Virus record (IMG/VR): IMGVR_UViG_3300025646_003943
Span: 1 to 31,625 of that record
Source: a virus
Direction: 5' to 3' (one strand)
DNA length: 31,625 nt
Both the position numbers and the translations under genes were made by a program. Shown here in pieces: positions 4,531 through 30,557 of this stretch (position 1 is the stretch's first letter; the number at the start of each line of letters is the position of its first letter). The notes below the pieces were generated by a model that was not told where the DNA came from, did not search any database, and worked only from the letters and a program-made list of their open reading frames with translations.

Positions 4531-4596
4531 TGCGTAGTTAAAGTATTGATTCTACGTAACTTATGCGTAGTTAAAGTATTGATTCTACGTAACTTA
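4531..4596. repeat. Perfect 33-bp tandem duplication
   Basis: The unit beginning TGCGTAGTTAAAGTATTGAT occurs twice head to tail, at 4531-4563 and 4564-4596, with no mismatch. The right copy includes the last codons and stop of the 181-aa gene (ISYVESIL-stop). The left copy is non-coding and ends one base from the -35 of the HEXXH promoter. Each unit carries a short imperfect inverted repeat (GCGTAG ... CTACGT). Perfect identity suggests a recent slippage duplication. Confidence 0.95.
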
Positions 4597-5116
4597 TTAA
4601 TTCTGGGTCATCTGCATAGGTAAAAGTACCTATAAACCCTGTACTCCTAGCGTATGGTAGTACAAAACGCTTTTCCCAGTTCCAGGTAACTTTTATGTTC
4701 GAAACCTGAACAAGTTGACTGTATAGTGTGTTTACTACATTTGCTTCTGTACCGAATTCTACTTCTTCGATCTCGCTATTATACCATCCCATGTATTCAG
4801 ATACATTTGACTCTTGCATAACAGGAAAATTGCATGTGAACTTTGATTCTATATACTCTCTTAATTGATTGTTAGATGTCCATGCTACTGCGTCTGGCAT
4901 CAAATCGTCATCAAAGTTTCTGGCGGGGAACCCTAGGACCCGCAAGCCTCTGTCGTAATACGTATCTTGCAGGGTTTCCAGTGTTGAAAACTGTTTATCG
5001 AAGTATTCAGTTAAAATGTGTCCAATATTAACTACTAGAAGAGTTTTATCTTCATAATCAGTTAAGGAAACAGTGTCTCCTTGTAGAGTAGTAAAAGTAT
5101 GGTTGTAACGTATCAT
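4571..5116 (-). CDS. Glutathione-peroxidase-fold protein lacking the catalytic Cys
   Basis: This 181-aa protein aligns by eye over its whole length to glutathione peroxidases. TLLVVN (25-30) matches the strand before the active site, GLRVLGFPARNF (57-68) matches GL.VLGFPCNQF, TWNWEKRFVL (144-153) matches the WNF.KFLV motif, and PELISYVESIL matches the C-terminal helix. The active-site Cys/Sec position holds Leu (about residue 35) and the Gln of the tetrad is Asn (67), so peroxidase activity is not expected. It is a diverged paralogue of the adjacent 253-aa protein, and a late promoter lies upstream of the pair. A structural or binding role is inferred. A perfect palindrome separates the two genes. 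The ribosome binding site is weak. Confidence 0.7.
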   Translation of the reverse strand: MIRYNHTFTTLQGDTVSLTDYEDKTLLVVNIGHILTEYFDKQFSTLETLQDTYYDRGLRVLGFPARNFDDDLMPDAVAWTSNNQLREYIESKFTCNFPVMQESNVSEYMGWYNSEIEEVEFGTEANVVNTLYSQLVQVSNIKVTWNWEKRFVLPYARSTGFIGTFTYADDPELISYVESIL

Positions 5117-5152: not shown

Positions 5153-5914
5153 TTACATTGCTAGATATGCGGCTAATGCATTGTCCCACTTTGATGTGCC
5201 TTCAGCTGTACCTAAAGTTGTATAGTCACCACTACCATTATACTTAATAATTTTCCAGTGACCTGCTCCATCAGCATCAGTAATTTTTACTGTTTGATTA
5301 GCACTAGGACTTGCTCCTTCAATATCATCCATAGTTGCAACTGTATGGTGAATTGTGTTGTAACCACTGTCTACCCAGTTGTAGCTAGGTGAATAAGCGT
5401 ACTCATTAGGTAAAACATCTGATGGGGCAAATGCTGTTACTTGAGCTCCGCCAGGTGCAATTAGATACTTGTTGTAAGACCAGTCTGGTGTTGCTCCTAC
5501 TAATGCAATTACTTCCTGCCAGAAAGAATCCTGCGCTCTACCATGTGATACCTTGTCTAAAGATTGGGTGCCAACATTCCAAGTGTTTGTTGTAGTTAAT
5601 ACATCACACTTTTGAAATACATCAAATCCGATTGTATAGTTAGCATCGAGATTGGATTTAATTTCAGCATTTGTGGCATATTCCTCACCGTCAGTATGTG
5701 TAGCAGTAGCATAATTTCCTGTAGGGAAAGCCATGATCTTTAGTCCACTTCCTGAATGAGCTGTATGTAATGCTTGTAATGAAGCAAGTTGGTCAGCAGT
5801 CCATCCACTGTGGCTTGCCATGTTTACTACTAACAGTGTGTTACCACTGTAGTCACTAAGATTAACGGTTGTGCCGTCTAATTTAGTTAATGTTTGTGAA
5901 TATGTAAGTGCCAT
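5153..5914 (-). CDS. Glutathione-peroxidase-fold protein with C-terminal extension, catalytically dead
   Basis: This 253-aa protein has a GPx-like domain in residues 1 to about 160: LLVVNMASHSGWT (27-39) equals VVNVAS.CG.T with Ser36 in place of the catalytic Cys/Sec, LKIMAFPTGNY (58-68) equals the FPCNQF motif with Gln changed to Asn, and DWSYNKYLI (144-152) equals WNF.KFLV. Residues about 160-253 are an added, Gly/Asp/Thr-rich domain (SYNWVDSGYNTI, TDADGAGHWKIIKYNGSGDY), as seen in phage decoration or tail proteins. A late promoter lies 30 nt upstream, and the AAGGA ribosome binding site sits in an inverted repeat (TATAAGG-A-CCTTATA, 5916-5930). I infer a late, probably virion, protein. Confidence 0.7.
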   Translation of the reverse strand: MALTYSQTLTKLDGTTVNLSDYSGNTLLVVNMASHSGWTADQLASLQALHTAHSGSGLKIMAFPTGNYATATHTDGEEYATNAEIKSNLDANYTIGFDVFQKCDVLTTTNTWNVGTQSLDKVSHGRAQDSFWQEVIALVGATPDWSYNKYLIAPGGAQVTAFAPSDVLPNEYAYSPSYNWVDSGYNTIHHTVATMDDIEGASPSANQTVKITDADGAGHWKIIKYNGSGDYTTLGTAEGTSKWDNALAAYLAM

Positions 5915-14855: not shown

Positions 14856-15567
14856 TTAAATATCTTCGAACTTCTGGCCATGTGCCTAAATCGATATAGT
14901 CTTGTACTCTAATACCTTTACTATTGTATATTGGTGTTTCTTTAATCTCATCTAACATCACACGTTGTCTCAGCGTAGACTTTTCCATAAAGTTTATACA
15001 CTGGTCAAACGCTCTACGTCTATAGGCAAACGCACACCAGAATGCATTATACTTTTCTACATCCTGTTCTGGTTTGTCCTCATAACTTTTTATAATACCA
15101 TCTTCTACTACAAGTGCGCCTTTAGTTTTTAATAAGTCAACATCGGTCTCGTCTTTGTATAAGAATGTAAAGCCTGTTTCTGTAAGGCTAGACATCACAC
15201 ACTCGTATAAGTCAGCACCTGTGTCTAACTTCATAACAGTATCTGGCAATAATACTATATTGTGTTCACCAAACAAGTGTCTTGCGCTTTTAATAGCACC
15301 CGTGTACTCATGTTCATTTGGATTCTGAAACGTAAAACTAATGTCATATCTGTTGTTATACTTTGCAAGGTAGTCTACAATCTCAGACTTGCCTTCTCTA
15401 ATAACGACTACAAACTCTACGTCTTTTCTACCATAGTCTCTAAAAAAGTTAAAACTGTTATCTATTAGGCTTTTGTTAGGCCCTATGCTCATTACCTCTT
15501 TAGCATAGGGTAATTGTAGTCTTGTTGCTTTGCCGGCGGCAGGCAATATCACTGTAAGTTTACTCAT
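14836..15567 (-). CDS. Sugar-1-phosphate nucleotidyltransferase
   Basis: This is a 243-aa protein. LTVILPAAGKATRLQLPYAKEV (4-24) is the G-x-G-T-R-type nucleotide loop plus the Lys (K23) that binds the sugar phosphate in NTP_transferase enzymes, IVLLPDTVMKL supplies the metal Asp region, and IIKSYEDKPE is the conserved EKP-type motif. It should make an NDP-sugar from NTP and sugar-1-phosphate (glucose-1-phosphate thymidylyltransferase/uridylyltransferase class) to feed the glycosyltransferases. No left-handed helix acyl domain is present. Its ATG overlaps the previous stop by 4 nt. Confidence 0.8.
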   Translation of the reverse strand: MSKLTVILPAAGKATRLQLPYAKEVMSIGPNKSLIDNSFNFFRDYGRKDVEFVVVIREGKSEIVDYLAKYNNRYDISFTFQNPNEHEYTGAIKSARHLFGEHNIVLLPDTVMKLDTGADLYECVMSSLTETGFTFLYKDETDVDLLKTKGALVVEDGIIKSYEDKPEQDVEKYNAFWCAFAYRRRAFDQCINFMEKSTLRQRVMLDEIKETPIYNSKGIRVQDYIDLGTWPEVRRYLNEENCH

Positions 15568-16112
15568 TTATTGTATCCAAATGTTTCAAAATCTTGCTTG
15601 TAAAAATTATACACTATTTCTTTCTGAAAGTCATATAATTCTATCTTTTTATCTGTTTGTGCGGCTCCTGAAACTTTTTCCCGTATACCACTAAACCCAT
15701 TATCATTTAACCACGGCCAGATAGTTTTATCTTCTAGTTTAAAAAATTTCATATTTAATTTTGGCTCATACCAATCTACTTGTCTACGTAATATACCTGG
15801 ATCTGGAAATTCACTAAGTTTTCCTTTATGCAAGCAGTCTAGTATCTGATCTAGTGTCCACTGCAACCTGCCTACTTGTTCTTCAATTTGATGATGGTAC
15901 GCACTGACAAATCTAGTGTAAGGGTTGCGTACTTGTACTATAAAATTATCCAACTTATATCCACGTTCTAGTATTTTACTTGCTCTAGAATGTGTACCTG
16001 TTATTTCGCCGTGGTGGTTATGGTCAAACTTTTGACACTGTACAACCACACTTCTTCCGCCACACTTGGGAATGTGTACGAATCCTGTATTTGTTTTACT
16101 AAGCACCAACAT
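15564..16112 (-). CDS. Sulfotransferase-family protein
   Basis: This is a 182-aa protein. TGFVHIPKCGGRSV (9-22) is the PAPS 5'-phosphosulfate loop of carbohydrate sulfotransferases (HIPK.GG.S), and FIVQVRNPYTRFVSAYHHQ (57-75) is the 3'-phosphate-binding R-x(7)-S motif (R62, S70). It would move sulfate from PAPS to a sugar or other hydroxyl. It is short against eukaryotic relatives but normal for phage members. Substrate is unknown; the context suggests the island's glycan. It overlaps the gene upstream by 14 nt. Confidence 0.8.
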   Translation of the reverse strand: MLVLSKTNTGFVHIPKCGGRSVVVQCQKFDHNHHGEITGTHSRASKILERGYKLDNFIVQVRNPYTRFVSAYHHQIEEQVGRLQWTLDQILDCLHKGKLSEFPDPGILRRQVDWYEPKLNMKFFKLEDKTIWPWLNDNGFSGIREKVSGAAQTDKKIELYDFQKEIVYNFYKQDFETFGYNK

Positions 16113-19873: not shown

Positions 19874-20740
19874 ATGAAAATTAGCTTTTGGCCTAATGCT
19901 GTTGCACTTAACGGCAAAGATATTTATAAGGCTTTCGAGGACCATGTTTCAATCTTTGACAATGTAGTTCATGAAGATATGACAGCAGATGTGGCTTGTA
20001 TCTGGAGCGTACTCTGGCGTGGTAGAATGCAGGCTAATCAAGCAGTTTATAACCATTACCGTAGCCAAGGTAAACCTGTTATTATTATGGAAGTAGGGGT
20101 ACTTAAACGTAACCATAGTTTTAGAATAGCAGTTAACCATATTAACAATACTGGGTATTACGGTCACACTGATCATCCTATTATACTTGGAAGAAATGAA
20201 CGTTTTGACTTTGAAGTTAAGGACTACAGCCAATCAGGAAACAATATTGTTATATGCTGTCAAAACGAATCCAGTGAGCTGTGGCATAACATGCCTAACA
20301 CTGAGCAATGGCTTGATACTGTTATACCTAAATTACAACTATATTACCCTAGGAAAAAAGTAATAGTAAGGCCTCATCCGCGTTATCCTTTGTCAGAAAA
20401 CATTTACAACAAATATAAGGTAGAGAAGCCTTTGCGGAGAGGAGATGCAGACGACACTGATTTTGTTGAAATACTGAAAGATGCTTTCTGTGTAGTAAGT
20501 CCAACAGGCGGCGCCGCAATAGAAGCAATTATAAGTGGAGTTCCCGTAATTACAAGTCCTGAAAGTCTTGCTAGTCCGGTTGCAAGAACAGACTATCAAG
20601 TAATGGTTCCTGATTTAGGATTGCGTAAAACCTGGATAAAACAAATTAGAAATACAGAATGGTTTATAGATGAGGTCGTTGCAGGAGAACCATATCGTAG
20701 ACTTAGGCCGTATTTGCTAAGTCGAATAAATGCCCACTGA
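19874..20740 (+). CDS. Capsule-biosynthesis-type GT-B-like protein (paralogue 3, plus strand)
   Basis: This is a 288-aa protein from ATG 19874 (a GTG two codons earlier is possible; neither has a clear ribosome binding site). NIVICCQNESSELWH, KKVIVRPHPRYP and CVVSPTGGAAIEAIISGVPV then ASPVARTD match the two paralogues at 16755 and 17575. The gene is divergent from the carbamoyltransferase (14 nt between start codons) and convergent with the methyltransferase gene (38-nt overlap at the ends). Having one copy on the opposite strand suggests an inversion or separate acquisition. It is possibly transcribed from a weak promoter inside the neighbouring gene; none was identified. Confidence 0.65.
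   Translation: MKISFWPNAVALNGKDIYKAFEDHVSIFDNVVHEDMTADVACIWSVLWRGRMQANQAVYNHYRSQGKPVIIMEVGVLKRNHSFRIAVNHINNTGYYGHTDHPIILGRNERFDFEVKDYSQSGNNIVICCQNESSELWHNMPNTEQWLDTVIPKLQLYYPRKKVIVRPHPRYPLSENIYNKYKVEKPLRRGDADDTDFVEILKDAFCVVSPTGGAAIEAIISGVPVITSPESLASPVARTDYQVMVPDLGLRKTWIKQIRNTEWFIDEVVAGEPYRRLRPYLLSRINAH
19921..19928 (-). promoter_or_regulatory. Perfect late-type promoter TATAAATA inside an opposing gene
   Basis: The minus strand reads CTTATAAATATC. It is the only exact TATAAATA that I noticed just upstream of a gene start, 62 nt before the carbamoyltransferase ATG at 19859, and it lies within the first codons of the plus-strand gene. It would make the minus-strand island a late transcription unit. 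An 8-mer like this also arises by chance a few times in an AT-rich window of this size, so position is the main support. Confidence 0.5.
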
Positions 20741-21458
20741 TCCAACGTAGTAGTAAATGTGGTTGGTTTGTAACATGATTTACTCTGTCAATACTTTCAT
20801 CAAAACTTTGAGGTAATAGTTTTTTATCACGAAGGTCGTGCCAGGTAGTTGTTAAAGGATCCATAGGCTTTACCTTACTTTTATATACAACTGCATGCAA
20901 CCAAGGATCATTTTGACCTTTATAATACAAGCCATCCTTACAGTCGAATCCTGCACATGCTAACATAAAAACAAGATTTATAATATTAAAACTATGTAAC
21001 TGTCCTGGAAACTGATTGATGTGTATTCTATTATATTCTATATTGTGTGTTTGTGGAAGAATAACACACAACATACCTCCCGGATTCATTTGCTCATTCC
21101 AGACTCTAAGTGTTTCGTAGGGATTTAAACAATACCCTAAACTGTCATGACTCCATATTAAATCTACTTTTACTGGCAGGAAAGGTGCTTTTGTAAAGTC
21201 GTTTTTAACAACTGTTAAGTTTTTAGGTACCACATAATTTAACTTTGGAGCAAGGTCAACCGCAAAACATTTATAGTTGTGTGGCTCTGGTACTTCTTCT
21301 CTGTTATGACATTGTGCCCACCACTTAATGTCTAATCCTGCACCACAACCAACATCTGCGACGCTACGTATAGAATCCATTAGGTCATCGTGTTGGTAAA
21401 GTTCATTAAGTGTGAATAAACTCTGTTCGTGACTTTCTTCTGGTGTTAGTTGTCTCAT
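20703..21458 (-). CDS. Class I SAM-dependent methyltransferase
   Basis: This 251-aa protein starts at ATG 21458 (MRQLTPEESHEQSLF), which overlaps the uvsY stop (ATGA); longer upstream starts would run inside uvsY. SVADVGCGAGLDIKWW (32-47) is SAM motif I, CFAVDLAPKLNY supplies the acidic motif II residue, and VDLIWSHDSLGYCLNP with PGGMLCVILPQ are motifs IV-V. Substrate is unknown: a sugar, lipid or small molecule fits the island, and nucleic acid is not excluded given uvsY next to it. Confidence 0.8.
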   Translation of the reverse strand: MRQLTPEESHEQSLFTLNELYQHDDLMDSIRSVADVGCGAGLDIKWWAQCHNREEVPEPHNYKCFAVDLAPKLNYVVPKNLTVVKNDFTKAPFLPVKVDLIWSHDSLGYCLNPYETLRVWNEQMNPGGMLCVILPQTHNIEYNRIHINQFPGQLHSFNIINLVFMLACAGFDCKDGLYYKGQNDPWLHAVVYKSKVKPMDPLTTTWHDLRDKKLLPQSFDESIDRVNHVTNQPHLLLRWISGHLFDLANTA

Positions 21459-21907
21459 ACTGTTACATCTTCCATACCTGCTGTTCGCAGTCTTGTAATG
21501 TGACCTAGTTGCCATTGTTTGGCTTCTAAACCTTTCATAATACCTAGCCAACGATTACGTAGTAGCGCAACTTCATTTATTAGTGTTTCAAAGTCTACTA
21601 CTTCGTCCTCACCATCAACATACTTCTCAGCATCTCTGCTGGTCAACGCACGTTGATAACCTTCTAGATATTTCTTGAACCACTTACGTCTTATACGTCG
21701 TAGTTCGATATTCATAAAATTTAATACTGCTTCTATTTCTTGCAGTTGGTTAAATCTGTGTTCAGTAATACCCGGTAAGTTAGTAAGAGACTTTTCTACA
21801 TTTCCCCATATCTTAACTTCCTGCTTGGCACCGTCTAACTCGTTATTGTAATGCGCAATAAAGTCAGGCAAAAAAGCCAAGTCCTGTACTACTTTATTAT
21901 ACCACAT
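21455..21907 (-). CDS. uvsY: UvsY recombination mediator
   Basis: This is a 150-aa protein (T4 UvsY is 137). MWYNKVVQDLAFLPDFIAHY, EHRFNQLQEIEAVL, RRKWFKKYLEGYQRAL and DFETLINEVALLRNRWLGIMK are recognisable from UvsY of T4-like cyanophages. It helps UvsX displace gp32 and load on ssDNA in recombination-dependent replication. Its start shares one base with the stop of the 80-aa gene (TAATG). Both are driven by a near-consensus sigma70 promoter at 22190-22218. In this phage it is separated from uvsX by two radical SAM genes and the 80-aa gene. Confidence 0.92.
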   Translation of the reverse strand: MWYNKVVQDLAFLPDFIAHYNNELDGAKQEVKIWGNVEKSLTNLPGITEHRFNQLQEIEAVLNFMNIELRRIRRKWFKKYLEGYQRALTSRDAEKYVDGEDEVVDFETLINEVALLRNRWLGIMKGLEAKQWQLGHITRLRTAGMEDVTV

Positions 21908-22149
21908 TATTCTTCGAAATCGATCTCGTCTATGTCATCATCACCATCAAAATCATCATCTAGATAATCTTGTGATGCTCTTTTTAAATATGAGTCGACA
22001 GCACAAAATTTTGCGAATTCTGCATCTGCTATTCCCATATCAACAAGATTTCCAACCAACTGGTCTGCGGCTGCCTGTCTATCTTTACTTGACACATACT
22101 CTTTCATAATTAAGTATGTTTCAGTTAATACGTCTAAATCAATTGACAT
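21907..22149 (-). CDS. Small acidic protein upstream of uvsY
   Basis: This is an 80-aa protein. An N-terminal helical part (LDVLTETYLIMKEYVSSKDR, then QAAADQLVGNLVDMGI) is followed by a very acidic tail (about 62-80, DYLDDDFDGDDDIDEIDFEE). A similar small gene sits directly upstream of uvsY in T4-like cyanophages, as I recall. The acidic tail suggests DNA mimicry or binding to a DNA-binding protein such as UvsY or gp32; this is inference. The ribosome binding site GGAG lies 7 nt before the ATG. It is the first gene after the promoter at 22190-22218. Confidence 0.8.
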   Translation of the reverse strand: MSIDLDVLTETYLIMKEYVSSKDRQAAADQLVGNLVDMGIADAEFAKFCAVDSYLKRASQDYLDDDFDGDDDIDEIDFEE

Positions 22150-22189: not shown

Positions 22190-22218
22190 ACTATACTATG
22201 CTAATTTGTCACTGTCAA
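22190..22218 (-). promoter_or_regulatory. Near-consensus sigma70-type promoter (TTGACA-17-TATAGT) for uvsY
   Basis: On the minus strand TTGACA (22218-22213), exactly 17 nt, then TATAGT (22195-22190). The -35 overlaps the last codons of the radical SAM gene at 22201. The predicted start lies about 35 nt before the ATG at 22149. This would be an early, host-polymerase promoter for the 80-aa gene, uvsY and the methyltransferase. Confidence 0.75.
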
Positions 22219-23343
22219 GTCAATTGGTTCATTTAACCAATCAACAAATGATGATGGGTATACGGATAAATCCAATCTTCTACGTTCTACAAACTTCTTT
22301 AAGAATATTTGTAAGTTACTATGTTGCTCTTTAGTACATTTTGTCTGCAAAGACTTTTTTATAAAATTGTCTTTATTTTTGAACTGCACAGACAGTAAAC
22401 TCTCTTTACTTGCATCATCTAGTACATTTAATGCAAGATAATCTGGTTCGTTACAAAAAACCATGTCTATATAATAGTCGCCGTACTTATCCTCAAATTC
22501 TTTGAAGTTGAAAATAGTTAAGTTAGATAATACACTACTAAAAGACACTTTGCCTGCTTTTTGTAGGAGTTCAAGATTTTTTACAAATCTTTCATAACTG
22601 TTGTTCCATCTCACAAACTCGTAACTTTCGTTCAATCCTTCAGCACTAACTACAAACTCTACGTTGTCTCCTATATCTGCTAGTATACGTTCTAACCTGT
22701 CAGGATTAACACCTAATCCAGTGTACAACCTAACAGGATTCGTAAAGTTTTTTAGCAACTTAGTCAAACTATTGTTTAAAAAAGGTTCACCGCCAGTTAT
22801 AGACACAAACTTATAATTCTTATACTTAACTATTTCATCTATCAGTAAATTATAAGACTCAGTTTGATCTATTTTCTTTTGTCCTAACTTTAACAATACT
22901 AAGTCGTTTACATTAATATTATACCGGTCTTCAAATAGATATGGTCCGTTACTCGCTATGTCTCTAAGCCAAGCAGTACTGTATTGTTTTGTACAATACA
23001 CGCAAGTGAGGTTACAATCACTACCTAAATTAATATGTAGTACTTCTGGCTCCGTTGTTATGTCAGTATGTGTTACTTTATCAGACTCCATAACAAGACG
23101 CCTACTAGTCTTACCCTGTCGTTCGGGAGCCCAGCATGTGGCTTCACAACTAGGAACTTGTTTACCATCTAACATATCCTTGCGCTCTTGTGTTAGTATA
23201 GGTATGTTAAACAAGTTACCTGGGTTGTCTTTTAACCAGGCGGTATCTATTTTATGTGGGTAAGCGGCGCAACACGATTGTAATTGCCGACGCTCAGGTT
23301 CTATAGTTAGCCACCAAAATTTTTGAGAGCAATAACTACTCAT
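22201..23343 (-). CDS. Radical SAM protein (copy 4)
   Basis: This is a 380-aa protein. The radical SAM cluster motif C110-NLT-C114-VY-C117 lies after LHINLGSD, and SITGGEPFL is the GGEP SAM-binding motif. Before the core are Cys24, Cys25, Cys66 and Cys70 (CEATC), a Cys-rich N-terminal segment also seen in the other three radical SAM proteins of this window, which may bind a second Fe-S cluster. Substrate is unknown. Its ATG overlaps the TGA of the preceding radical SAM gene (ATGA). It is the last gene before the uvsY promoter. Confidence 0.85.
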   Translation of the reverse strand: MSSYCSQKFWWLTIEPERRQLQSCCAAYPHKIDTAWLKDNPGNLFNIPILTQERKDMLDGKQVPSCEATCWAPERQGKTSRRLVMESDKVTHTDITTEPEVLHINLGSDCNLTCVYCTKQYSTAWLRDIASNGPYLFEDRYNINVNDLVLLKLGQKKIDQTESYNLLIDEIVKYKNYKFVSITGGEPFLNNSLTKLLKNFTNPVRLYTGLGVNPDRLERILADIGDNVEFVVSAEGLNESYEFVRWNNSYERFVKNLELLQKAGKVSFSSVLSNLTIFNFKEFEDKYGDYYIDMVFCNEPDYLALNVLDDASKESLLSVQFKNKDNFIKKSLQTKCTKEQHSNLQIFLKKFVERRRLDLSVYPSSFVDWLNEPIDLTVTN

Positions 23344-24725
23344 AACAATTTGTTCCCCTCATTTAGAAGCGCATTTAGTTCTGGATAATAGTCTTTAAAG
23401 AATGTTGAACGTTTAAGGTCTTGCGGTTCTAAATACTCCCGTACATTACTTACACCTTCTTTAGAATCCATTATGCTTAATATTGGTGTAATTTTTTGGA
23501 CGAACTCTTCATTACTTATAGATAACAAACTATTTCTTATATTTTTCTTTACTGTACCAGGTAAATTAGTCACTGTCAATTCGTAAGGGTATGTAAGTAC
23601 ATTATATCTAAGTCCCATGCCAAGTTGGGTCGACAAATCAAAAACTTCCTTACTATAAAGTATATTAATATTAGTAATTGTGGCGTAAATGTTACAGATA
23701 TAATTAGTGTCTCCGTAGCGTTTTAAATTTTCACTTACTTTATGCCATGTAGATCCAAATCGTTCATACATAAAACGTTTGCCTACTGCATCAATACTAA
23801 AACTAAGTTCTACTTGCTTAAATTTATCCCAGTAATTAAATAGGAAGTCTGCAAATACTGTTCCGTTTGTATTATAATGTAATGATATATTTTTGCTAAG
23901 ATCATTATCTATAAAATATTGTAACAACTTTCTATGTGTTTTGTCCAGTAACGGTTCACCACCTGCAAATGTAATGTATCTTACATCCTTGCTTACACTA
24001 ATAATGTCTGACCAAAATGTACTTGACTCATTTGCTAACCAGTCAAACTCTATCGTTACTGCATCCTCGTAAAGACTCCAGGTACTACTAGAATGTGAAT
24101 TGCAAATCCTACATGCTAGGTTACACTTGTTACCCAACTTGATATCTAAGTTTAGTATCTTGTTTGCTGTTAAATCGTTGTAGTCTATGCCAAACTTGTG
24201 TTCTCTAAACACATATTCATCATTTAACCGTTTACTGACACCACCACTATCTTCTACTTGCCAGCACTCACCGCAAGCGTCTGGTCTATGCCCTTGTAAT
24301 AACTGTCGCTTCAGCTCTTGTTGTTTGGAGCTTGTAAAGTACCTAATAATACTGGTACTAGTCTCACCTAATTGCCTGTCCCATAAACAGCAACGATGTA
24401 AACTGCTGTCAACATCTATCTCTAGTCCTATCCACGGTGTCATACAAATTGTATCTGGTATGTTGTAGTTTGTAGGATTGTCTACCGACAAATTGCCTCT
24501 GTTTATGTTCTCAACAAAGAATGTATCAATGTCTAAATGTACAAATAACTTGCTAAGGTAACGCTCTAAGTGTTCTTTAGCATCAGACTCTACAACATCA
24601 TCAATAAAAAGAATGCGTTCGTTGTTAGCAAACGCACCCTTGTATACCGCCTGTAACTCAGTGTATATTTGATTTACTGGCTGTGTTAGTAGACTACTGT
24701 AGTTCTTCTTGAGTAGGTACTTCAT
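23340..24725 (-). CDS. Radical SAM protein (copy 3)
   Basis: This is a 461-aa protein from ATG 24725 (an upstream TTG at 24731 is less likely). The radical SAM motif C201-NLA-C205-RI-C208 follows LNLDIKLGNK, and ITFAGGEPLL is the GGEP motif. N-terminal to it is CMTPWIGLEI (C94), HRCCLW and a C151-GE-C154 pair: an auxiliary cysteine module placed before the core, in reverse of the usual C-terminal SPASM/twitch. Such proteins occur in marine T4-like phages with no proven function. The start lies inside the uvsX 3' end (32-nt overlap), so they are co-transcribed. Confidence 0.85.
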   Translation of the reverse strand: MKYLLKKNYSSLLTQPVNQIYTELQAVYKGAFANNERILFIDDVVESDAKEHLERYLSKLFVHLDIDTFFVENINRGNLSVDNPTNYNIPDTICMTPWIGLEIDVDSSLHRCCLWDRQLGETSTSIIRYFTSSKQQELKRQLLQGHRPDACGECWQVEDSGGVSKRLNDEYVFREHKFGIDYNDLTANKILNLDIKLGNKCNLACRICNSHSSSTWSLYEDAVTIEFDWLANESSTFWSDIISVSKDVRYITFAGGEPLLDKTHRKLLQYFIDNDLSKNISLHYNTNGTVFADFLFNYWDKFKQVELSFSIDAVGKRFMYERFGSTWHKVSENLKRYGDTNYICNIYATITNINILYSKEVFDLSTQLGMGLRYNVLTYPYELTVTNLPGTVKKNIRNSLLSISNEEFVQKITPILSIMDSKEGVSNVREYLEPQDLKRSTFFKDYYPELNALLNEGNKLL

Positions 24726-25800
24726 CAGCAATTTCTGGTTCCGTTGTAGGTACTTCTTCTGTTAGTTCTTGTTTTTTAGGTTTATCGTCCCAGTCTGCCA
24801 TAATAGCATCTAAACAACCACCTGTATTCTGTTCCCACTCTTTTCTGTAGAACTTGACTTCTTCGCCCTCACTTGCAACATACTTTAGTCTGTTGCCATC
24901 TTTTTGTAACAAGTTCTTTTTCTCAAACAAGTCTACTAGGCCACTGTATGGATTCATACCAGTTTCATAAGGAATCTTAACTTGTACACCTTCAAACGGT
25001 TTGGCATAACGAGTCTTCATTACTTTACAGCCTGCTCTAATACCTTTTACTTCAGAAGTTTTAACACCGTCTTCATCTTCTTTTAGTTTAAGTTTCTTCA
25101 TAGCAACTACAATACTTGAAGCATAGATAAAGCCCTGTCCACCTGATATCTTATCATCTGGATCAAACATATCTTGACTTGCGTATGTGTGGTTAGTACA
25201 TACCATGCCTACATTGTGGTTACCAAACATATTAACACAGTTACGTACAAGTGCTGTCAGTGCTTTAGGCTTACGACCCATATCACCTTTTAAGTCACCT
25301 TTATCGAACTGATCTACGTCAGTAGGTGTAAGTAGCATACCCAAACTGTCAATAACAAATAGTACTTTTGGTCTATCGTCTAATGGCAGAGTTTTGTAGT
25401 CTGCCATAAATGAACTAATAGTCTTTGCTACGTCATCAATCATAGCCAGGCCTAAACGTAGTAGTTTATCCTCACTGGTGTCTACTCCCAATGCGTGTAA
25501 CCAACTCTCATCTAGTGCGTTCTCACTGTCTACTAGTACAACAAAGATTCCTTGTTCTTGAGCGGCCTTAATAATGTTGCCTGAACAAATGTAACTTTTA
25601 CCTGCACCAGACTCACCTGCAAATACAGTCACTTTGCCTAGTGGTACACCTTTGTTAAAGTCTCCACTGATAAGATAGTTTAAGGCATAGTTGCCTGTTG
25701 AGATCCAGTCTGTAGGATCATTGAAGCCAAAACTAATTCCGTCAATGGCTTTAGTTAGGCCTTTTCTAAATTTTGATACGTCGAAGGGTTTTTGTGCCAT
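24694..25800 (-). CDS. uvsX: UvsX RecA-like recombinase
   Basis: This is a 368-aa protein. Walker A is GESGAGKS (62-69), Walker B is VLFVIDSLGML (146-156), VLVDSENALDE (88-98) carries the catalytic Glu region, and MVCTNHTY and KISGGQGFIYASS match motif regions in T4 UvsX. The C-terminus is an acidic, Pro/Glu-rich tail (EVPTTEPEIADEVPTQEEL) as in other UvsX. It forms presynaptic filaments for strand exchange and replication restart with UvsY and gp32. The ribosome binding site GAGG precedes the ATG; the gene starts 1 nt after a radical SAM gene ends. Confidence 0.95.
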   Translation of the reverse strand: MAQKPFDVSKFRKGLTKAIDGISFGFNDPTDWISTGNYALNYLISGDFNKGVPLGKVTVFAGESGAGKSYICSGNIIKAAQEQGIFVVLVDSENALDESWLHALGVDTSEDKLLRLGLAMIDDVAKTISSFMADYKTLPLDDRPKVLFVIDSLGMLLTPTDVDQFDKGDLKGDMGRKPKALTALVRNCVNMFGNHNVGMVCTNHTYASQDMFDPDDKISGGQGFIYASSIVVAMKKLKLKEDEDGVKTSEVKGIRAGCKVMKTRYAKPFEGVQVKIPYETGMNPYSGLVDLFEKKNLLQKDGNRLKYVASEGEEVKFYRKEWEQNTGGCLDAIMADWDDKPKKQELTEEVPTTEPEIADEVPTQEELQ

Positions 25801-25801
25801 G

Positions 25802-26956
25802 TTATTGCCTCATAAGTTTATAAATCTCAGGGAATATTTGCTCACTGTCTGTACTTCTGCGAGCATCTATCCACTGTAAGTATTCAATCGTGCTGTTTGG
25901 ATTTTTTTCAAACGGCTCTTGTATATATCTCAGTAAATTTCTATAACTGTTTTCTAATAGATGTCCTGGGTTTTCTTGTATTCGTTTACCTAGTATAACA
26001 CTTATTTTTTCCAGTGTCAATTTACTATGATGCCGAATGTTAAGTTCTACCGGTTCTGTTATTGGTCCTATTACAAATGCATTTGGATGAAAGTTCCAGT
26101 CGTTTTTAAATTTATCTATAAAGTTAAACATGCTATACGCATTAAGAGCAAAGTATAACATATTAAATGTTATCTTATGTCCTAGGTCTTTGATCCAACG
26201 TAAGTTGCTACAGAAGGTTGCCCAGTCTCCACCATACCGAATGTACTCGTATTCTGCACCCATTGTTTCTGCACTAACTGTCCAGTGTACATTTTTGAAC
26301 TGACATGCTAAGTCAAATACTTTTGTATTTGTCTGACTTAAATTAGTATTAATACGTAAACTTACATTGGGATTATACTTGTAAAGTTCCTCAAGTAGTT
26401 CTTCGTTCTCTGTCATTAGCATGGGCTCACCGCCTGCTAAGTAAACATTTTTTAACGTTTTGATATTTTCAAAAACATAATTACGCAGGTCTTTATATTT
26501 GTCTTTACCGGGCTTAGGTTGTTTTATTCCTAGTTCTTGTTCCCACTTACTACTAAACTCTGGACCACAGTATATACATTTAAAGTTACAGGTATTTTGC
26601 CAACGTATATCAATTTGGTGCAGTTCGTGTGCATTTTGATCGTATATAACTTTGTCAACGTTTCTTAGTTCTTTAATATAATACTTTCTATCGCTGATAA
26701 CATTTAAACCAGTTGTTTGTCTCTCGAGTTCATAGCAACCTTGACAACTATCGTGTTGTTTATTACTTTGTTGTGTCTTTTGTATTTCTAAGTTTTTAGA
26801 ACCACTAATTATTTCACGTATAGGCATAGTTTTAAGATCGCCTATATCTTGATATGCTCTTATACAGTTTTTGACTTGTCCATTGTGATTGACCATTACA
26901 CCCGTCCAAGGCACAGGACATCGTACATCACTAGTAATATATTCTTTAGCGTCCAT
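25802..26956 (-). CDS. Radical SAM protein (copy 2)
   Basis: This is a 384-aa protein. The core motif C123-NFK-C127-IY-C130 follows IDIRWQNT, and VYLAGGEPML is the GGEP motif. The N-terminal segment has C13 in RCPVPWTGVMV, C31 and a C71-QG-C74 pair, the same layout as the other copies (Cys-Pro/Thr-Pro-Trp start, then CxxC). This looks like an auxiliary Fe-S or substrate-recruiting module. The reaction is unknown. It starts one base inside the SDR stop (TAATG) and ends 1 nt before uvsX. Confidence 0.85.
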   Translation of the reverse strand: MDAKEYITSDVRCPVPWTGVMVNHNGQVKNCIRAYQDIGDLKTMPIREIISGSKNLEIQKTQQSNKQHDSCQGCYELERQTTGLNVISDRKYYIKELRNVDKVIYDQNAHELHQIDIRWQNTCNFKCIYCGPEFSSKWEQELGIKQPKPGKDKYKDLRNYVFENIKTLKNVYLAGGEPMLMTENEELLEELYKYNPNVSLRINTNLSQTNTKVFDLACQFKNVHWTVSAETMGAEYEYIRYGGDWATFCSNLRWIKDLGHKITFNMLYFALNAYSMFNFIDKFKNDWNFHPNAFVIGPITEPVELNIRHHSKLTLEKISVILGKRIQENPGHLLENSYRNLLRYIQEPFEKNPNSTIEYLQWIDARRSTDSEQIFPEIYKLMRQ

Positions 26957-27477
26957 TAGGCAATACTAACGTCGTAAATTTCCATACCTACTTGGTCATT
27001 TTCTAAAATAGTTGTAAGTCTCTTTACCCATGCGTGTACATTAGCGCCGCCTTCTTTTTGTGTGTCTACTTTACCTGGCCGCACAATTACAAGTTGTGGC
27101 CAAGTTTGATTATTACGTAATAGTTCAACAGCACTTTCTAATGCACGTTTTTGGTGATGGTACTTTAACATATGATAACCATCTAAACAACTAACAGTCA
27201 TACCTGCCATCATACTACTGATATTAATAATCTTTTTACCTGGTTTATCTTTCCAATATTCATACACATCAAACAATAATTCTGTTTGCGCATAACCTTG
27301 TTGTGCATTGTTAAAGAACCAATCAGCTTGTGCAATGCGTTCAGCCAAGTACTCGTGATTAGCAATATCCCATCCATTGCGTTTACTGTAATCTAATACA
27401 GTATGTCCTTTTTGAACATAATGATCTAATATTGCCTTGCCTATACCGTTTGTACCGCCTGTAATTGCTATTTTCAT
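26956..27477 (-). CDS. Short-chain dehydrogenase/reductase, compact
   Basis: This is a 173-aa protein. ITGGTNGIGKAIL (5-17) is the TGxxxGIG NAD(P)-binding motif, FFNNAQQG the NNAG-type motif, NISSMM supplies the catalytic Ser, and Y101-HML-K105 the YxxxK pair. It is shorter than the usual 250 aa, lacking most of the substrate-binding C-terminus, though all catalytic elements are present. It sits between two radical SAM genes with 1-4 nt overlaps, so it may act on the same metabolite (oxidising or reducing a sugar). Substrate is unknown. Confidence 0.85.
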   Translation of the reverse strand: MKIAITGGTNGIGKAILDHYVQKGHTVLDYSKRNGWDIANHEYLAERIAQADWFFNNAQQGYAQTELLFDVYEYWKDKPGKKIINISSMMAGMTVSCLDGYHMLKYHHQKRALESAVELLRNNQTWPQLVIVRPGKVDTQKEGGANVHAWVKRLTTILENDQVGMEIYDVSIA

Positions 27478-28424
27478 AACAGATATTCCTTATAATTAAT
27501 TTTCCTAATTGTATCTTGATACAGTAACCATTCAGACAACTTGTGACTGTTGTCCTGTTCAGTACCTACAACGTTAAATAATTCTTTTGCTGGCTCAGTT
27601 AAAAAGTTTGTATGTCTAACACTTAAGACGTCTGGCGCTTCTAAAAACGCCCATGCCCAATTTACTTTCTTATCCTCAGTAAATTTTTTAATATTATTAA
27701 AGTCTTGTAAGTTTAATGCGCTAATAGTAGACCATAGATCTAAATGAAACTTCTCATTCTTGAATTTATTATAGTAATTAAATTGCTTTAGCCATGTTTT
27801 CCAAGTTACGGGCCAACGTAAGTAGTCGTGTACCTTATCAATACCGTCCAAACTCATTGTTATTGTAACATCTATATCACGTTCAAGTAAACTCTTAACA
27901 TCTATTCTTAAACTACCGTTTGTGTTGATACGAATATAACGTACATTTTTTGGTGGATGTTCTAATAATGTTTTATAGTTAGGGCTCGCAGTGGGTTCAC
28001 CACCGTTAATGTCTAGTTTAAGTATGCGCTCCTGCGGAAAGTCATAAAACTTATCTGTATTATCTACACCAATTTTATTATTTGCGATTGCGCCAAACTT
28101 TGTGCTAAGGTGTGGATTACAATGCTGACATGCACTATTACATATATTGTCTAATACCCCGCCTATAATGAGATAGTCTTTGCGTATATTGTAAAGTTCC
28201 TCGTGTTGTTTCTCACTAAACTGTCTTATGCTTTCTTTGCCCTCATTTTCACTAACTTTACACCTTATACATTCGTCAGGCCAGTCTTGCAAGTTTTGAT
28301 TCCATTCACTAGCATTCATGTCATTGAACGACTTAAATCGTGGGGGGCGTACCATATGTCCGCACCGACTTACGGTACCGTCTGGATTTAATCTTGCAAA
28401 GTGTCTAAATCTAACGCAATTCAT
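27474..28424 (-). CDS. Radical SAM protein (copy 1)
   Basis: This is a 316-aa protein. The core motif C95-NSA-C99-QH-C102 follows IGGVLDNI, and LDINGGEPTAS is the GGEP motif. The N-terminal segment has C3, C21 (SRCGHM) and C52-IR-C55, again the CxxC module before the core. It is the shortest of the four. It overlaps the oxygenase-like gene upstream by 14 nt and the SDR gene by 4 nt. Reaction unknown. Confidence 0.85.
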   Translation of the reverse strand: MNCVRFRHFARLNPDGTVSRCGHMVRPPRFKSFNDMNASEWNQNLQDWPDECIRCKVSENEGKESIRQFSEKQHEELYNIRKDYLIIGGVLDNICNSACQHCNPHLSTKFGAIANNKIGVDNTDKFYDFPQERILKLDINGGEPTASPNYKTLLEHPPKNVRYIRINTNGSLRIDVKSLLERDIDVTITMSLDGIDKVHDYLRWPVTWKTWLKQFNYYNKFKNEKFHLDLWSTISALNLQDFNNIKKFTEDKKVNWAWAFLEAPDVLSVRHTNFLTEPAKELFNVVGTEQDNSHKLSEWLLYQDTIRKINYKEYLL

Positions 28425-28929
28425 TTACTGGTTCATTGAAAAATGTCATACTTAATACTATACGTGGCCCATATTCAATCTTTACACCGTGTGGTATCTG
28501 ACTGTTGAACACTATTGGTTTTGTAAAGAACTTGTGTGTAATTATCTCTGAGTTTGCTACCCAACCTTTTAAGTCATATACTTCTCTATCAAACTTATCT
28601 TTTATTTTTGGTCTGTAACTAATATCCTCATCATACCAATAGTTTATGTTACCCACACAGTTTTGTATAGGTATGTTAAGTTTAGCAACTACTGGTTTTG
28701 CATCTACGTGTAAGTCTAAATGTCTAGTAAGATACGTACAAGCAATATCTCTAGGATGCAGTTTGAGATCCTTGACTAGCCAATTCATCAGAGTAGGACA
28801 ACTACGTAGGCAAGTAGACTCGTCAATATCGTTCCATCCTTCTACAAGATCGTAACCAGCAAGGTGCTCCATGACTTCATGTTGTATTTGAATTATCCCA
28901 TGACACTCTAGCTCTTTAAATGCTTTCAT
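28411..28929 (-). CDS. 2-oxoglutarate/Fe(II) oxygenase-like protein
   Basis: This is a 172-aa protein from ATG 28929, MKAFKELECHG (a longer start lies 63 nt upstream inside the sulfotransferase gene). RHLDLHVDAKP gives a likely H74-x-D76 metal pair, LNIPIQNC and INYWYDE follow as core strands, and IPHGVKIEYGPRIVLSMTF holds the distal His (H147) and the Arg (R156) that binds 2-oxoglutarate. This HxD...H...R order is that of 2OG-Fe(II) dioxygenases, of the aspartyl/phytanoyl-type seen in many marine phages. It would hydroxylate a protein, sugar or nucleotide; substrate is unknown. Confidence 0.65.
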   Translation of the reverse strand: MKAFKELECHGIIQIQHEVMEHLAGYDLVEGWNDIDESTCLRSCPTLMNWLVKDLKLHPRDIACTYLTRHLDLHVDAKPVVAKLNIPIQNCVGNINYWYDEDISYRPKIKDKFDREVYDLKGWVANSEIITHKFFTKPIVFNSQIPHGVKIEYGPRIVLSMTFFNEPVNELR

Positions 28930-29500
28930 GTATTTTTTTACTATGTTCAAAAACTTCTTTATAGTATTCCTTGTGGTTAGTACGAAGTACACGCATTAGT
29001 TCATCAAAATGTACTTGTTCATTTATGTAGTTATCCCATATCATCTTATCACAAGTCATATAGAATTGTACTTTGTCTGACACAGGTACATCCATTGTAT
29101 TATAAGGTCGTTCGTGAAATACAGTTACCTCTCTAATTTTGTCTATGCTTTTAAACACAAAACTTGTTTGCTCGTTCATGTAACGATGCAAGTTAATTAG
29201 AGTGTAAAACTGTGGTGCGTAATGTTTATTTAAAAACAAATACTTTACAGCCGTATGCATACTAATGCCAGTCTGGTGTACAAATGTACTTACACCACTT
29301 TTAAACCTTGCAATAGGTTCTCGCCAGTAAACTGTAATTGTTTGTGCTTGTTGTATTTCTTTCAGTGTTGCTAACTTGTATCCTTCTTTATCTATACTAC
29401 TAGATGCATTTTTAAGGATTTTAGCCACGAGTTTGCCTGACGGTAACTTGTATACCTCAGGCGTATCGGGAAATAGTTCGTAATCGAGTTGTGTAAACAT
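28916..29500 (-). CDS. Sulfotransferase-like protein
   Basis: This is a 194-aa protein from ATG 29500 (MFTQLDYELFPD). An in-frame ATG at 29533 exists but falls inside the loop of the gene 32 terminator. KLVAKILKNASSSI resembles the 5'-phosphosulfate loop (K.a.SSS) and ITVYWREPIARFKSGVSTFV the R-x(7)-S 3'-phosphate motif of phage sulfotransferases. It is diverged from the sulfotransferase at 15564. No ribosome binding site is obvious. It opens the run ending with copy 4 of the radical SAM genes, reached by readthrough of the terminator unless an unseen promoter exists. Confidence 0.6.
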   Translation of the reverse strand: MFTQLDYELFPDTPEVYKLPSGKLVAKILKNASSSIDKEGYKLATLKEIQQAQTITVYWREPIARFKSGVSTFVHQTGISMHTAVKYLFLNKHYAPQFYTLINLHRYMNEQTSFVFKSIDKIREVTVFHERPYNTMDVPVSDKVQFYMTCDKMIWDNYINEQVHFDELMRVLRTNHKEYYKEVFEHSKKIHESI

Positions 29501-29516
29501 TGTACTTGTAGTATTA

Positions 29517-29546
29517 AAGCAGGTGCCCACCATTGGACACCCGCTT
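29517..29546 (-). terminator. Strong terminator hairpin after gene 32
   Basis: On the minus strand AAGCGGGTGTCC, loop AATGGT, GGGCACCTGCTT (12-bp stem with two wobble pairs), followed by TAATAC. It lies 24 nt after the gene 32 stop and before the sulfotransferase-like gene. The only upstream in-frame ATG of that gene (29533) is in its loop. Confidence 0.75.
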
Positions 29547-29570: not shown

Positions 29571-30557
29571 TTATTGCTTTTGTCTATTTCTAATCATAGC
29601 CAGAATGTCTTCTGCTCTCTGGCTTGCTGGTTTAGCAGTTTCAACTGGTGCTGTTGTTTCTGCTGGTTCCATATCTTCTTCTGACTCAGGTTGTGCTTCA
29701 GCTACCGGTGCTGGAGCAGGCTTTGAAGCAGGAGCACTTTCAGTTGCAGGTTCTGCGTTAGCAATAACGACACCTGCTGGTCTAAAGTAGTTGCCCCACT
29801 TATCAGCGTCATATGGTTGCCCATCTACTGATGCTTCAAACATTTCTTTCATAACCTTGAGCGTTGTCTCATCAGGACGCTTGGGCAAGAAGTCTGCTAG
29901 ATCGAATAAACCATATTGTTCTATAGCCGCTGTTTCTGTTGAAGTTAGTGCAGACTCTCGCCTTGCCCAATTACTTGTAGAGTAGTCACTGTAACCGCCT
30001 TTGCTGGTTTTAACTACTCTGAAGTCTAAGCCTTGATTGTAGTCAGTTGGTAACTCAACCATGTCTGGGTCAAGTAGTGCTGACTTAATCAGGTTAAAGA
30101 TTTGTGGACTAATTACAAATCTACGAATTGGATTCTCAGGAGTTGCATCCTCCTGCATAGGATTTTCTCGTACAAAGCCCTGGAACAAATAACTACGCTT
30201 CTTCCAGTACTTACGACCCATATCTTCAAGACTCTTGTCTTTGAACCAAGTTCTGACTTCTGACAGGATAGGACAGGTCTCTCCCCACATCTCAACGCAT
30301 GGGACTTGTACTTGTACAGGTTTGCTATCTGCTTGTCCTTTAATACCCTGGAAAGGTAAACGGATCATAGCACGTTCTACCCAGAAAAAGTCATTTTTAG
30401 AATTGCCATCAGGAAGGAACCTGATAGTTGCGGTGTCGCCTTCTTTAATATTCCAGTGTGCAAAGATAGCATTGTCGCCACCCCCACTAGAATTACCGCC
30501 TTGTTTGTTTTCTTGTTGTTGCAGTCTTGCTCTGATATCGGCCAATGATGTTGCCAT
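29571..30557 (-). CDS. 32: Single-stranded DNA-binding protein gp32
   Basis: This is a 328-aa protein (T4 gp32 is 301). N-terminal ATSLADIRARLQQQENK is the B-domain that gives cooperative binding, then a Gly/Ser linker. The OB-fold core follows (FAHWNIKEGDTATIRFLPDG; IRLPFQGIKG; KYWKKRSYLFQGFVREN). The zinc module is degenerate: only C87 and C95 remain (PCVEMWGETCPI), as in cyanophage gp32 as I recall. The C-terminus is long, Ala/Pro/Glu-rich, and ends in a helix (SQRAEDILAMIRNRQKQ). It coats ssDNA and contacts UvsY, polymerase and helicase loader. AAGGAG lies 7 nt before the ATG. Confidence 0.95.
   Translation of the reverse strand: MATSLADIRARLQQQENKQGGNSSGGGDNAIFAHWNIKEGDTATIRFLPDGNSKNDFFWVERAMIRLPFQGIKGQADSKPVQVQVPCVEMWGETCPILSEVRTWFKDKSLEDMGRKYWKKRSYLFQGFVRENPMQEDATPENPIRRFVISPQIFNLIKSALLDPDMVELPTDYNQGLDFRVVKTSKGGYSDYSTSNWARRESALTSTETAAIEQYGLFDLADFLPKRPDETTLKVMKEMFEASVDGQPYDADKWGNYFRPAGVVIANAEPATESAPASKPAPAPVAEAQPESEEDMEPAETTAPVETAKPASQRAEDILAMIRNRQKQ

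Follow-up and report, generated by a model that had tools for sequence, protein, structure and literature searches.

Gene content of the locus

The window, that is, the whole stretch of 31,625 nucleotides analysed, is a fragment of a T4-like phage with four radical SAM open reading frames (R1 to R4) on its minus strand. The genes discussed here are as follows.

20703–21551, minus strand: class I methyltransferase adjoining uvsY (Methyltransf_11, 3.7e-8)
21455–21907, minus strand: uvsY (PHROG 231, 1.9e-14)
22201–23343, minus strand: R1, radical SAM protein with N-terminal four-cysteine module, optional gene of the uvsX–uvsY slot (N_Twi_rSAM 153.9 bits, cut-off 170; cysteines kept in 13/13 orthologues)
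23340–24731, minus strand: R2, radical SAM protein with N-terminal twitch and 90-aa extension, optional gene of the uvsX–uvsY slot (N_Twi_rSAM 293.5 bits; cysteines kept in 11/11 orthologues; slot contents)
24694–25800, minus strand: uvsX recombinase, flanking the cassette (PHROG 97 UvsX-like, 2.7e-67)
25802–26956, minus strand: R3, radical SAM protein with N-terminal twitch, 384 aa, cassette gene (N_Twi_rSAM 233.8 bits; alignment A1; AF2 model, pLDDT 83.5)
26956–27477, minus strand: SDR, short (173 aa) short-chain dehydrogenase/reductase, cassette gene (Pfam adh_short 2.6e-7; profile against PDB SDRs 1.9e-8)
27474–28424, minus strand: R4, radical SAM protein with N-terminal four-cysteine module, 316 aa, cassette gene (Pfam PF04055; N_Twi_rSAM 106.7 bits, cut-off 170; 24-sequence alignment A2, 7/7 cysteines invariant)
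28411–28992, minus strand: OX, often found with the cassette, resembling 2OG-Fe(II) oxygenases in its motif (HxD...H...R unchanged across 9 sequences)
28916–29533, minus strand: ST, sulfotransferase-like protein, cassette gene, 205 aa (alignment A3; AF2 model, pLDDT 85.6)
29571–30557, minus strand: gp32-like ssDNA-binding protein, the other cassette flank (PHROG 1192, 1.5e-67)

The original prediction had placed four radical SAM genes here, and motif positions and Pfam bear this out, coordinates included: each protein carries one CxxxCxxC and one GGEP motif (C110/G184 in R1, C203/G257 in R2, C123/G175 in R3 and C95/G141 in R4). Each protein also has a Pfam Radical_SAM match (values from 1.3e-16 to 2.2e-8), so the co-occurrence of the motifs is not due to chance, and the AF2 model of R3 aligned with SuiB, MoaA and BlsE at Z 10–11; both the CxxxCxxC motif and the core fold that define the superfamily are present. 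Overlaps between neighbouring genes had also been proposed. R4 and SDR, as well as SDR and R3, overlap by 4 bases, and R2 (with a TTG start) overlaps uvsX by about 38 bases, whereas R3 is separated from uvsX by a 1-base gap. The block also holds two open reading frames left out of that prediction (28411–28992 and 28916–29533), the second of which is part of the conserved unit described below.

The best-scoring family for all four proteins is NCBIfam N_Twi_rSAM (NF033640), for which NCBI sets a curated cut-off of 170 bits on the score of the whole protein. R2 and R3 score above this value, while R1 and R4 score below it and are relatives, not members, of the family by the NCBI rule.

An N-terminal twitch-type module

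23134–23331, minus strand: R1 twitch-like module, residues 5–70 (Cys 5, 24, 66 and 70 invariant)
24264–24446, minus strand: R2 twitch-like module, residues 96–156 (Cys 96, 114, 153 and 156 invariant)
26732–26920, minus strand: R3 twitch domain, residues 13–75 (C13-x12-G-x4-C31 ... C71xxC74; Pfam SPASM; BtrN alignment)
28260–28418, minus strand: R4 twitch-like module, residues 3–55 (C3, C21, C52, C55; hhalign of R3 and R4 profiles; invariant cysteines)

The N-terminal cysteines (R1 5, 24, (25), 66, 70; R2 96, 114, (115), 153, 156; R3 13, 31, 71, 74; R4 3, 21, 52, 55) are invariant across orthologues (n = 13, 11, 23 and 24 for R1, R2, R3 and R4, respectively). When R3 and R4 profiles were compared with hhalign (E 3.7e-18), the module aligned as well as the core. 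R3 matches Pfam SPASM over the whole model (7.7e-8; 32.9 bits against a cut-off of 21.5), and none of R1, R2 and R4 matched in the same Pfam SPASM search. The SPASM/twitch motif, CX9-15GX4C followed by CxxC, is found in these proteins, with CxxxC as the last pair in R1. The module of R3 also aligns with the auxiliary domain of BtrN (2-deoxy-scyllo-inosamine dehydrogenase), a four-cysteine twitch of the form C-x17-C ... CxxC, with the four cysteines in register (whole-sequence E 7e-4; best single stretch i-E 0.22–0.32), while the R4 profile matched only the core in PDB sequences, BtrN being absent from the matches. Judged by these alignments, the N-terminal module of R1 to R4 is a BtrN-type twitch domain, which normally lies C-terminal to the core. 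NCBIfam already lists the layout of an N-terminal twitch followed by a radical SAM core under N_Twi_rSAM, and R1–R4 share it; the definition of that family, which has no assigned function, includes no cassette, SDR or ST.

The extra cysteines had been described as replacing the usual C-terminal SPASM. Their presence in all four proteins and their position were correctly described, but the module is itself of the SPASM/twitch type; the accompanying Pro-Trp motif occurs only in R2 and R3, and the CxxC pair does not extend to R1. Orthologue alignments and N_Twi_rSAM scores place the four proteins in one radical SAM family with conserved N-terminal cysteines, which argues against unrelated families whose cysteines are not kept in homologues.

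In a quick tree search, R1 to R4 each formed a separate clade, consistent with their description as paralogues and indicating four old orthologue groups; a recent tandem duplication was rejected on this basis. All four are under purifying selection: dN/dS is about 0.08–0.14 for R1, R2 and R3, and in R4 dN is low and dS saturated.

Partner proteins

Across 21 SDR sequences, TGxxxGIG (G7, G11, G13), NNAQ, Y106 and K110 are invariant and S87 is conserved in more than 90%; SDR has both the TGxxxGxG motif and the S-Y-K catalytic residues of its class. The enzyme classes of R3, R4 and SDR are established.

ST looks like a PAPS-type sulfotransferase, with moderate support from its fold. In the VIA comparison of its model, the top 15 rows were all sulfotransferases (Z up to 6.0), and the next class reached 3.6. 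K41, R71, P73 and R76 are invariant and S79 is conserved in more than 90% of alignment A3, and the R-x7-S spacing matches the PAPS 3'-phosphate motif. The model resembles PAPS sulfotransferases such as heparan sulfate 3-OST, StaL and Teg12 in its predicted fold and in the K / R-x7-S spacing, but at about 10% identity, with these modest Z values, in a protein of only 205 aa and with no Pfam match. Foldseek matches had E > 0.3, which does not speak for a new fold; a profile search against PDB sequences returned nothing useful, and hhalign gave a weak match to the Pfam-positive open reading frame at 15564–16112. Comparison with orthologues suggests that translation begins at Met12, near 29500.

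In OX, H95, D97, H168 and R177, candidates for the facial triad and 2OG-binding Arg of a 2OG-Fe(II) oxygenase, are invariant in 9 sequences, with no match in Pfam or PDB; the gene accompanies 38 of 97 full cassettes.

A cassette gained and lost nearly as a unit

R3, R4, SDR and ST (28916–29533) form a cassette that uncultured phages gain and lose in a nearly all-or-none manner. Among 160 gp32–uvsX intervals, 97 hold all four genes, in three gene orders, 55 hold none, and 8 have partial or other contents. Among 66 uvsX neighbourhoods, a sample fetched without the module genes as query, the full set was found in 9, none in 56, a partial set in 0 and another radical SAM gene in 1. Pairwise distances of the cassette genes correlate more with each other (0.87 for SDR–R3) than with those of uvsX (0.63–0.71).

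In other phages, modified versions of the cassette lie at an unrelated site, away from gp32 and uvsX. In these 9 records, ST and R4 are present in 9/9, SDR in 8/9, R3 in 3/9, OX in 5/9 and an extra radical SAM gene in 9/9. This second site adjoins a Toprim primase and a DnaB-type helicase. Weak, partial near-matches to APS kinase were seen in 2 of the 9. The gp32–uvsX gap might be an insertion hot spot collecting accessory neighbours without a joint function, as some phages carry other genes in it (gaps of up to 4.2 kb). This explanation is largely refuted and very improbable, since partial sets are missing from the unbiased sample, the same content appears in rearranged orders and the same genes occur together at an unrelated site.

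R3 gave zero tblastn matches at 1e-5 against 50,697 isolated phage records, and the best E value for R4 in isolated phages was 0.02 or worse; these searches thus revealed no carrier of the cassette in culture. A single scan of genome_contigs gave two loci. The richer one, MAG MED685 (G032), was rejected as a bacterial carrier: a T4-type Gp23 on the same contig shows that this is phage DNA assigned to a bacterial bin, and it therefore offers no bacterial operon with clues to function.

The slot between uvsX and uvsY varies in content, and R1 and R2 are optional genes of it, separate from the cassette. The original prediction treated R1–R4 as one set, acting in a multistep pathway or as modifying enzymes with different targets, and the four do share one block in the present phage and in its close relatives, L005 and L007 among them; a fifth family member, moreover, often takes the place of R1/R2 in the slot. 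However, most carriers of R3/R4 lack both R1 and R2, and radical SAM genes of the slot also occur without the cassette (e.g., L105, L106 and L145). R3 and R4 travel with SDR and ST, while R1 and R2 come and go elsewhere, which makes a joint pathway of all four improbable.

Neighbouring genes

The methyltransferase by uvsY is found in 26/30 phages with the cassette and 9/30 without it (p 1.6e-5, a statistic that ignores kinship). The proposed co-occurrence with the glycan island did not hold near uvsY, where glycan genes were equally common with (19/30) and without (21/30) the cassette (p 0.78), and the island was rejected as a partner there. An acidic, conserved 80-aa open reading frame (21907–22149) was likewise rejected as a RiPP precursor, being found with and without the cassette. 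A UDP-glucose dehydrogenase adjoins a family member in G011, and a UDPG dehydrogenase and an epimerase lie near the second-site cassette in L187. A-type Fe-S carriers, a point of likeness to the marine myophages discussed below, occurred in 8 of 16 records searched.

Comparison with known systems

For the four-cysteine cluster of BtrN, a role in oxidation has been proposed (PMC6231123). The module of BtrN is C-terminal and no cassette accompanies it, whereas the module is N-terminal in R1–R4, and the likeness does not imply a shared substrate. AprD4, a radical SAM diol dehydratase, works with the NADPH reductase AprD3 (PMC5461906) and was a weak Foldseek match (E 2.5e-3). Here, too, a radical SAM enzyme is paired with a putative ketone reductase, SDR, whose gene overlaps those of R3 and R4 and which co-evolves with R3; unlike AprD4/AprD3, the present system has two radical SAM partners, a sulfotransferase-like partner, a phage setting and another placement of the auxiliary domain. 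We regard BtrN and AprD4 as architectural analogues only.

Multiple radical SAM genes also occur as cassettes in T4-like marine phages: the passages available from two studies describe a marine myophage genome with 12 such genes (PMC5332604) and pelagimyophages with radical SAM cassettes in a host-recognition cluster (PMC7029224), and those passages do not describe the ST-R4-SDR-R3 unit or its gp32–uvsX location. The "moaA/nifB/pqqE family" proteins of KVP40-type Vibrio phages, which are cultured, belong to the same broad family (about 25% identity to R2), but form a separate clade (weak support, 64) and lie among GT8 genes, near nadV, without the cassette.

A possible tailoring pathway

The near all-or-none occurrence, gene overlaps, correlated distances and recurrence at a second site suggest that R4, SDR, R3 and ST make up a single tailoring pathway, which T4-like jumbo-type phages carry as a cassette; we put this forward tentatively, as a reading with a substantial chance of being right. 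The product is probably an unusual, perhaps sulfated, modification of some molecule. With SAM and the CxxxCxxC cluster, R4 and R3 would each abstract a hydrogen atom from a C–H bond beside a hydroxyl, and a putative auxiliary Fe-S cluster held by the four N-terminal cysteines would then accept the electron, as in BtrN. Dehydrogenation or dehydration would yield a ketone, which SDR might reduce with NAD(P)H for a net epimerisation or deoxygenation, by analogy with AprD4/AprD3. ST may then sulfate, or modify in a PAPS-dependent manner, the product or the substrate. R1 and R2 could perform related reactions on other targets or add optional steps.

A sugar or glycan is our first guess for the substrate, as suggested by the KVP40-type relatives among GT8 genes and the nucleotide-sugar genes of G011 and L187; the equal frequency of glycan genes near uvsY with and without the cassette argues against it. 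DNA would fit as well, since both cassette sites lie among replication genes. The cassette might produce a hypermodified base, or a nucleotide that is protective or terminates chains, given that the two known sites are in the gp32–uvsX–uvsY and primase–helicase blocks, that another family member lies between primase and helicase in G011, and that viperin, MoaA and QueE, enzymes acting on nucleotides, are also among the matches of the radical SAM core. In T4, too, base-modification genes are located near uvsX. However, no gene next to the cassette was recognised as encoding a known base-modification enzyme, we know of no precedent for a sulfotransferase-like partner in base modification, the Vibrio phage relatives sit among glycosyltransferases, and the cassette is missing from most of the closest relatives by uvsX; we consider a DNA or deoxynucleotide target unlikely.

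Alternatively, R3 and R4 could be RiPP-like maturases that alter a protein side chain, with ST acting on, e.g., tyrosine. SPASM/twitch enzymes of known function mostly act on peptides, and SuiB and SkfB are the best Foldseek matches, but these matches span the core common to the superfamily. The cassette contains no small precursor gene, the 80-aa open reading frame occurs regardless of it, and the Pfam search of R1–R4 revealed no RRE-type domain, leaving this explanation unlikely.

Implications

To our knowledge, none of the radical SAM genes of marine T4-like phages has a known role. They are abundant there, with up to 12 per genome according to one report (PMC5332604), and a 289-kb relative has 14. 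R3 and R4 stand out as a pair with fixed partners in a nearly all-or-none arrangement, which makes them part of a defined four-gene set open to expression and testing. It is possible, if on the unlikely side, that a sulfotransferase, two N-terminal-twitch radical SAM enzymes and an SDR constitute a hitherto undescribed pathway of T4-like jumbo-type phages, encoded on a mobile cassette and yielding a new sulfated, radical-derived modification of a phage glycan, DNA or virion protein. If the proposed chemistry is true, these phages would encode their own radical-plus-sulfation pathway, pointing to a modification that nobody has sought in virions or infected cells.

Radical SAM ORFs and their N-terminal module

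The 31.6-kb viral record carries T4-type gp32, uvsX and uvsY, all on the minus strand, together with four radical SAM ORFs, which we confirmed at the coordinates originally predicted.

Radical SAM ORFs of the window
22201-23343, minus strand: R1, radical SAM Pfam match
23340-24731, minus strand: R2, radical SAM Pfam match
25802-26956, minus strand: R3, radical SAM Pfam match
27474-28424, minus strand: R4, radical SAM Pfam match

The four are radical SAM enzymes, and each contains the predicted CxxxCxxC and GGEP, with four cysteines before the core. They fall in a named family with no function assigned: NF033640 (N_Twi_rSAM) is the top NCBIfam model for all of them, with R2 and R3 above and R1 and R4 below its cut-off, and its name already describes this arrangement, in which the twitch domain precedes the radical SAM core.

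R3 residues 13-75 match Pfam SPASM over the full model (7.7e-8), and in a 23-sequence R3 profile residues 11-85 pair with the auxiliary domain at the C-terminus of BtrN so that all four cysteines line up. The BtrN statistic is modest (E 7e-4 for the whole sequence, 0.22-0.32 for the single stretch alone); the cysteine register and the independent Pfam match agree. The four cysteines of the BtrN domain fully ligate a [4Fe-4S] cluster, the suggested oxidant of the substrate radical (PMC6231123); this domain is C-terminal, whereas the matching module of R3 is N-terminal. The alignment of R3 and R4 profiles spans module and core (E 3.7e-18). The four module cysteines are invariant in R3 (n=23), R4 (n=24), R1 (n=13, where the last pair is CxxxC) and R2 (n=11); ten widely different family members all keep three of them, and at least 90% keep the fourth. 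R1-R4 share a four-cysteine module, predicted from sequence to bind a cluster.

R2 orthologues have in common an extension of about 90 residues before the module (R2 residues 1-90), with no Pfam match. R3 C218 (window about 26303-26305), a barrel cysteine outside both cluster motifs, is invariant in 23/23 R3 sequences and possibly serves as hydrogen donor or in another catalytic role.

A four-gene cassette between gp32 and uvsX

Relatives were gathered by three routes, with R3, uvsX or R4 as query. Among 160 non-identical gp32-uvsX intervals, 97 contained orthologues of R4, R3, the sulfotransferase-like ORF ST (window 28916-29533) and the short-chain dehydrogenase SDR (window 26956-27477), while 55 contained none; the others had ST and R4 only (6), lacked SDR (1) or held another radical SAM gene (1). 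Because querying with R3 or R4 favours cassette carriers, the uvsX route is the fair sample: 56 of its 66 intervals were without the cassette, 9 had all four genes, none was partial and 1 held another radical SAM gene. Content stays constant while gene order changes (ST R4 SDR R3 in 81, SDR R3 ST R4 in 14, R3 ST R4 SDR in 2), and the R4-SDR and SDR-R3 junctions are mostly 4-base overlaps. Between the four genes, pairwise distances show mutual correlations of 0.75-0.87, against 0.63-0.71 with uvsX; partial correlations given uvsX are 0.56-0.78. The four genes form a nearly all-or-none unit.

R1 and R2 lie in the uvsX-uvsY slot. Its content differs among phages: no gene at all, R1, R2 or a different radical SAM gene. 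In a quick tree R1, R2, R3 and R4 are separate clades (support 95-100). The original reading of the four as one set of paralogues in a recombination operon thus holds only in part: by gene neighbourhood, R1/R2 and R3/R4 are two different kinds of copy.

ST was previously unannotated. Its alignment keeps K41, R71, P73 and R76, and S79, eight residues past R71, in >90%. The AlphaFold model (pLDDT 85.6) had no significant match by Foldseek alone; in structural comparison the top 15 rows were sulfotransferases, with Z up to 6.0 vs 3.6 for the next class. The model thus points to a sulfotransferase-like protein, which is likely PAPS-dependent. SDR is short, yet retains the cofactor and catalytic residues of its class. 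A further ORF, OX (28411-28992), occurs in 38/97 full cassettes and shows an HxD...H...R pattern with no database match. A class I methyltransferase adjoins uvsY in 26/30 phages with the cassette vs 9/30 without, counts uncorrected for kinship. In the window it spans 20703-21551, where the TTG start is probably too early (282 aa; orthologues are mostly about 250 aa).

Recurrence at a second genomic site

Ten R4 loci showed neither gp32 nor uvsX. The nine that were mapped carried ST (9/9), R4 (9/9), SDR (8/9), R3 (3/9) and OX (5/9), with a further, weakly scoring radical SAM gene upstream in 9/9. The gene set is therefore not a by-product of one place; from these few loci, ST-R4 looks like the core, with SDR and R3 as additions. 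Neighbours include a primase or DnaB-type helicase, an FkbM methyltransferase and a porin-like ORF, and at one locus (L187) a UDP-glucose dehydrogenase and epimerase lie some kilobases away.

Other genes were observed at such loci. Following R4 on the opposite strand is a conserved ORF some 230 aa long (L198:6972-7658; also L186, L187, L196, L229, L231, L238 and L244); it has no Pfam match and reads like an SGNH hydrolase by its GCSHTWG motif. The second-site cassette also encloses another radical SAM-like ORF, on the minus strand and rich in cysteines at its C-terminus (L244:3739-4917, PF04055 below cut-off at 6.7e-5; L196:2690-3940). Separately, in a 289-kb phage relative (G011), a further N-twitch radical SAM gene near R3 in the tree (L093:12568-13686) is close to a Toprim primase and DnaB-type helicase, again a replication block.

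Possible chemistry and substrate

By analogy with BtrN, we infer that R4 and R3 would act on a carbon bearing a hydroxyl group, by oxidation or dehydration, and that the auxiliary cluster would take up the electron; SDR would then reduce the ketone, the part that AprD3 plays for AprD4 (PMC5461906), and ST would add sulfate. Our guess at a carbohydrate substrate is based on the GT8 genes that surround family members in KVP40-type phages, on UDP-sugar genes beside family members and on the fact that both precedents act on sugars. Against this guess, the proposed link to glycan genes failed to appear near uvsY, where these were no commoner with the cassette (19/30) than without (21/30). Both cassette sites also lie among replication genes, so that the target may instead be DNA or a nucleotide. 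For a RiPP-like role, no precursor-like ORF specific to the cassette was found.

Relation to known phage genes

Two papers report many radical SAM genes and Fe-S carrier proteins in T4-like marine phage genomes (2017, PMC5332604) and cassettes of radical SAM genes within the host-recognition clusters of pelagimyophages (2020, PMC7029224). An A-type Fe-S carrier was present in 8/16 records searched, and the 289-kb relative has 14 family members; it also encodes a CHASE2 domain and nucleotide cyclase protein (G011:C1 about 274991-277021; L094:4992-7022). R3 had no match at 1e-5 among 50,697 isolated phage records. One contig listed under a gammaproteobacterial MAG (G032 contig C3; L085, L095-L097) carries Gp23 and >10 N-twitch genes, and looks like phage DNA binned as bacterium. 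Elsewhere in the window, two minus-strand ORFs resemble glutathione peroxidases (Pfam GSHPx; 4571-5116 and 5153-5914); the usual active-site Cys/Sec position is Ser (NMASHSGWT) or unrecognisable, perhaps a reused fold and not a peroxidase.

The ST-R4-SDR-R3 unit was described nowhere in the limited set of papers searched. What is new here is the fixed partnership of these four genes and its recurrence.
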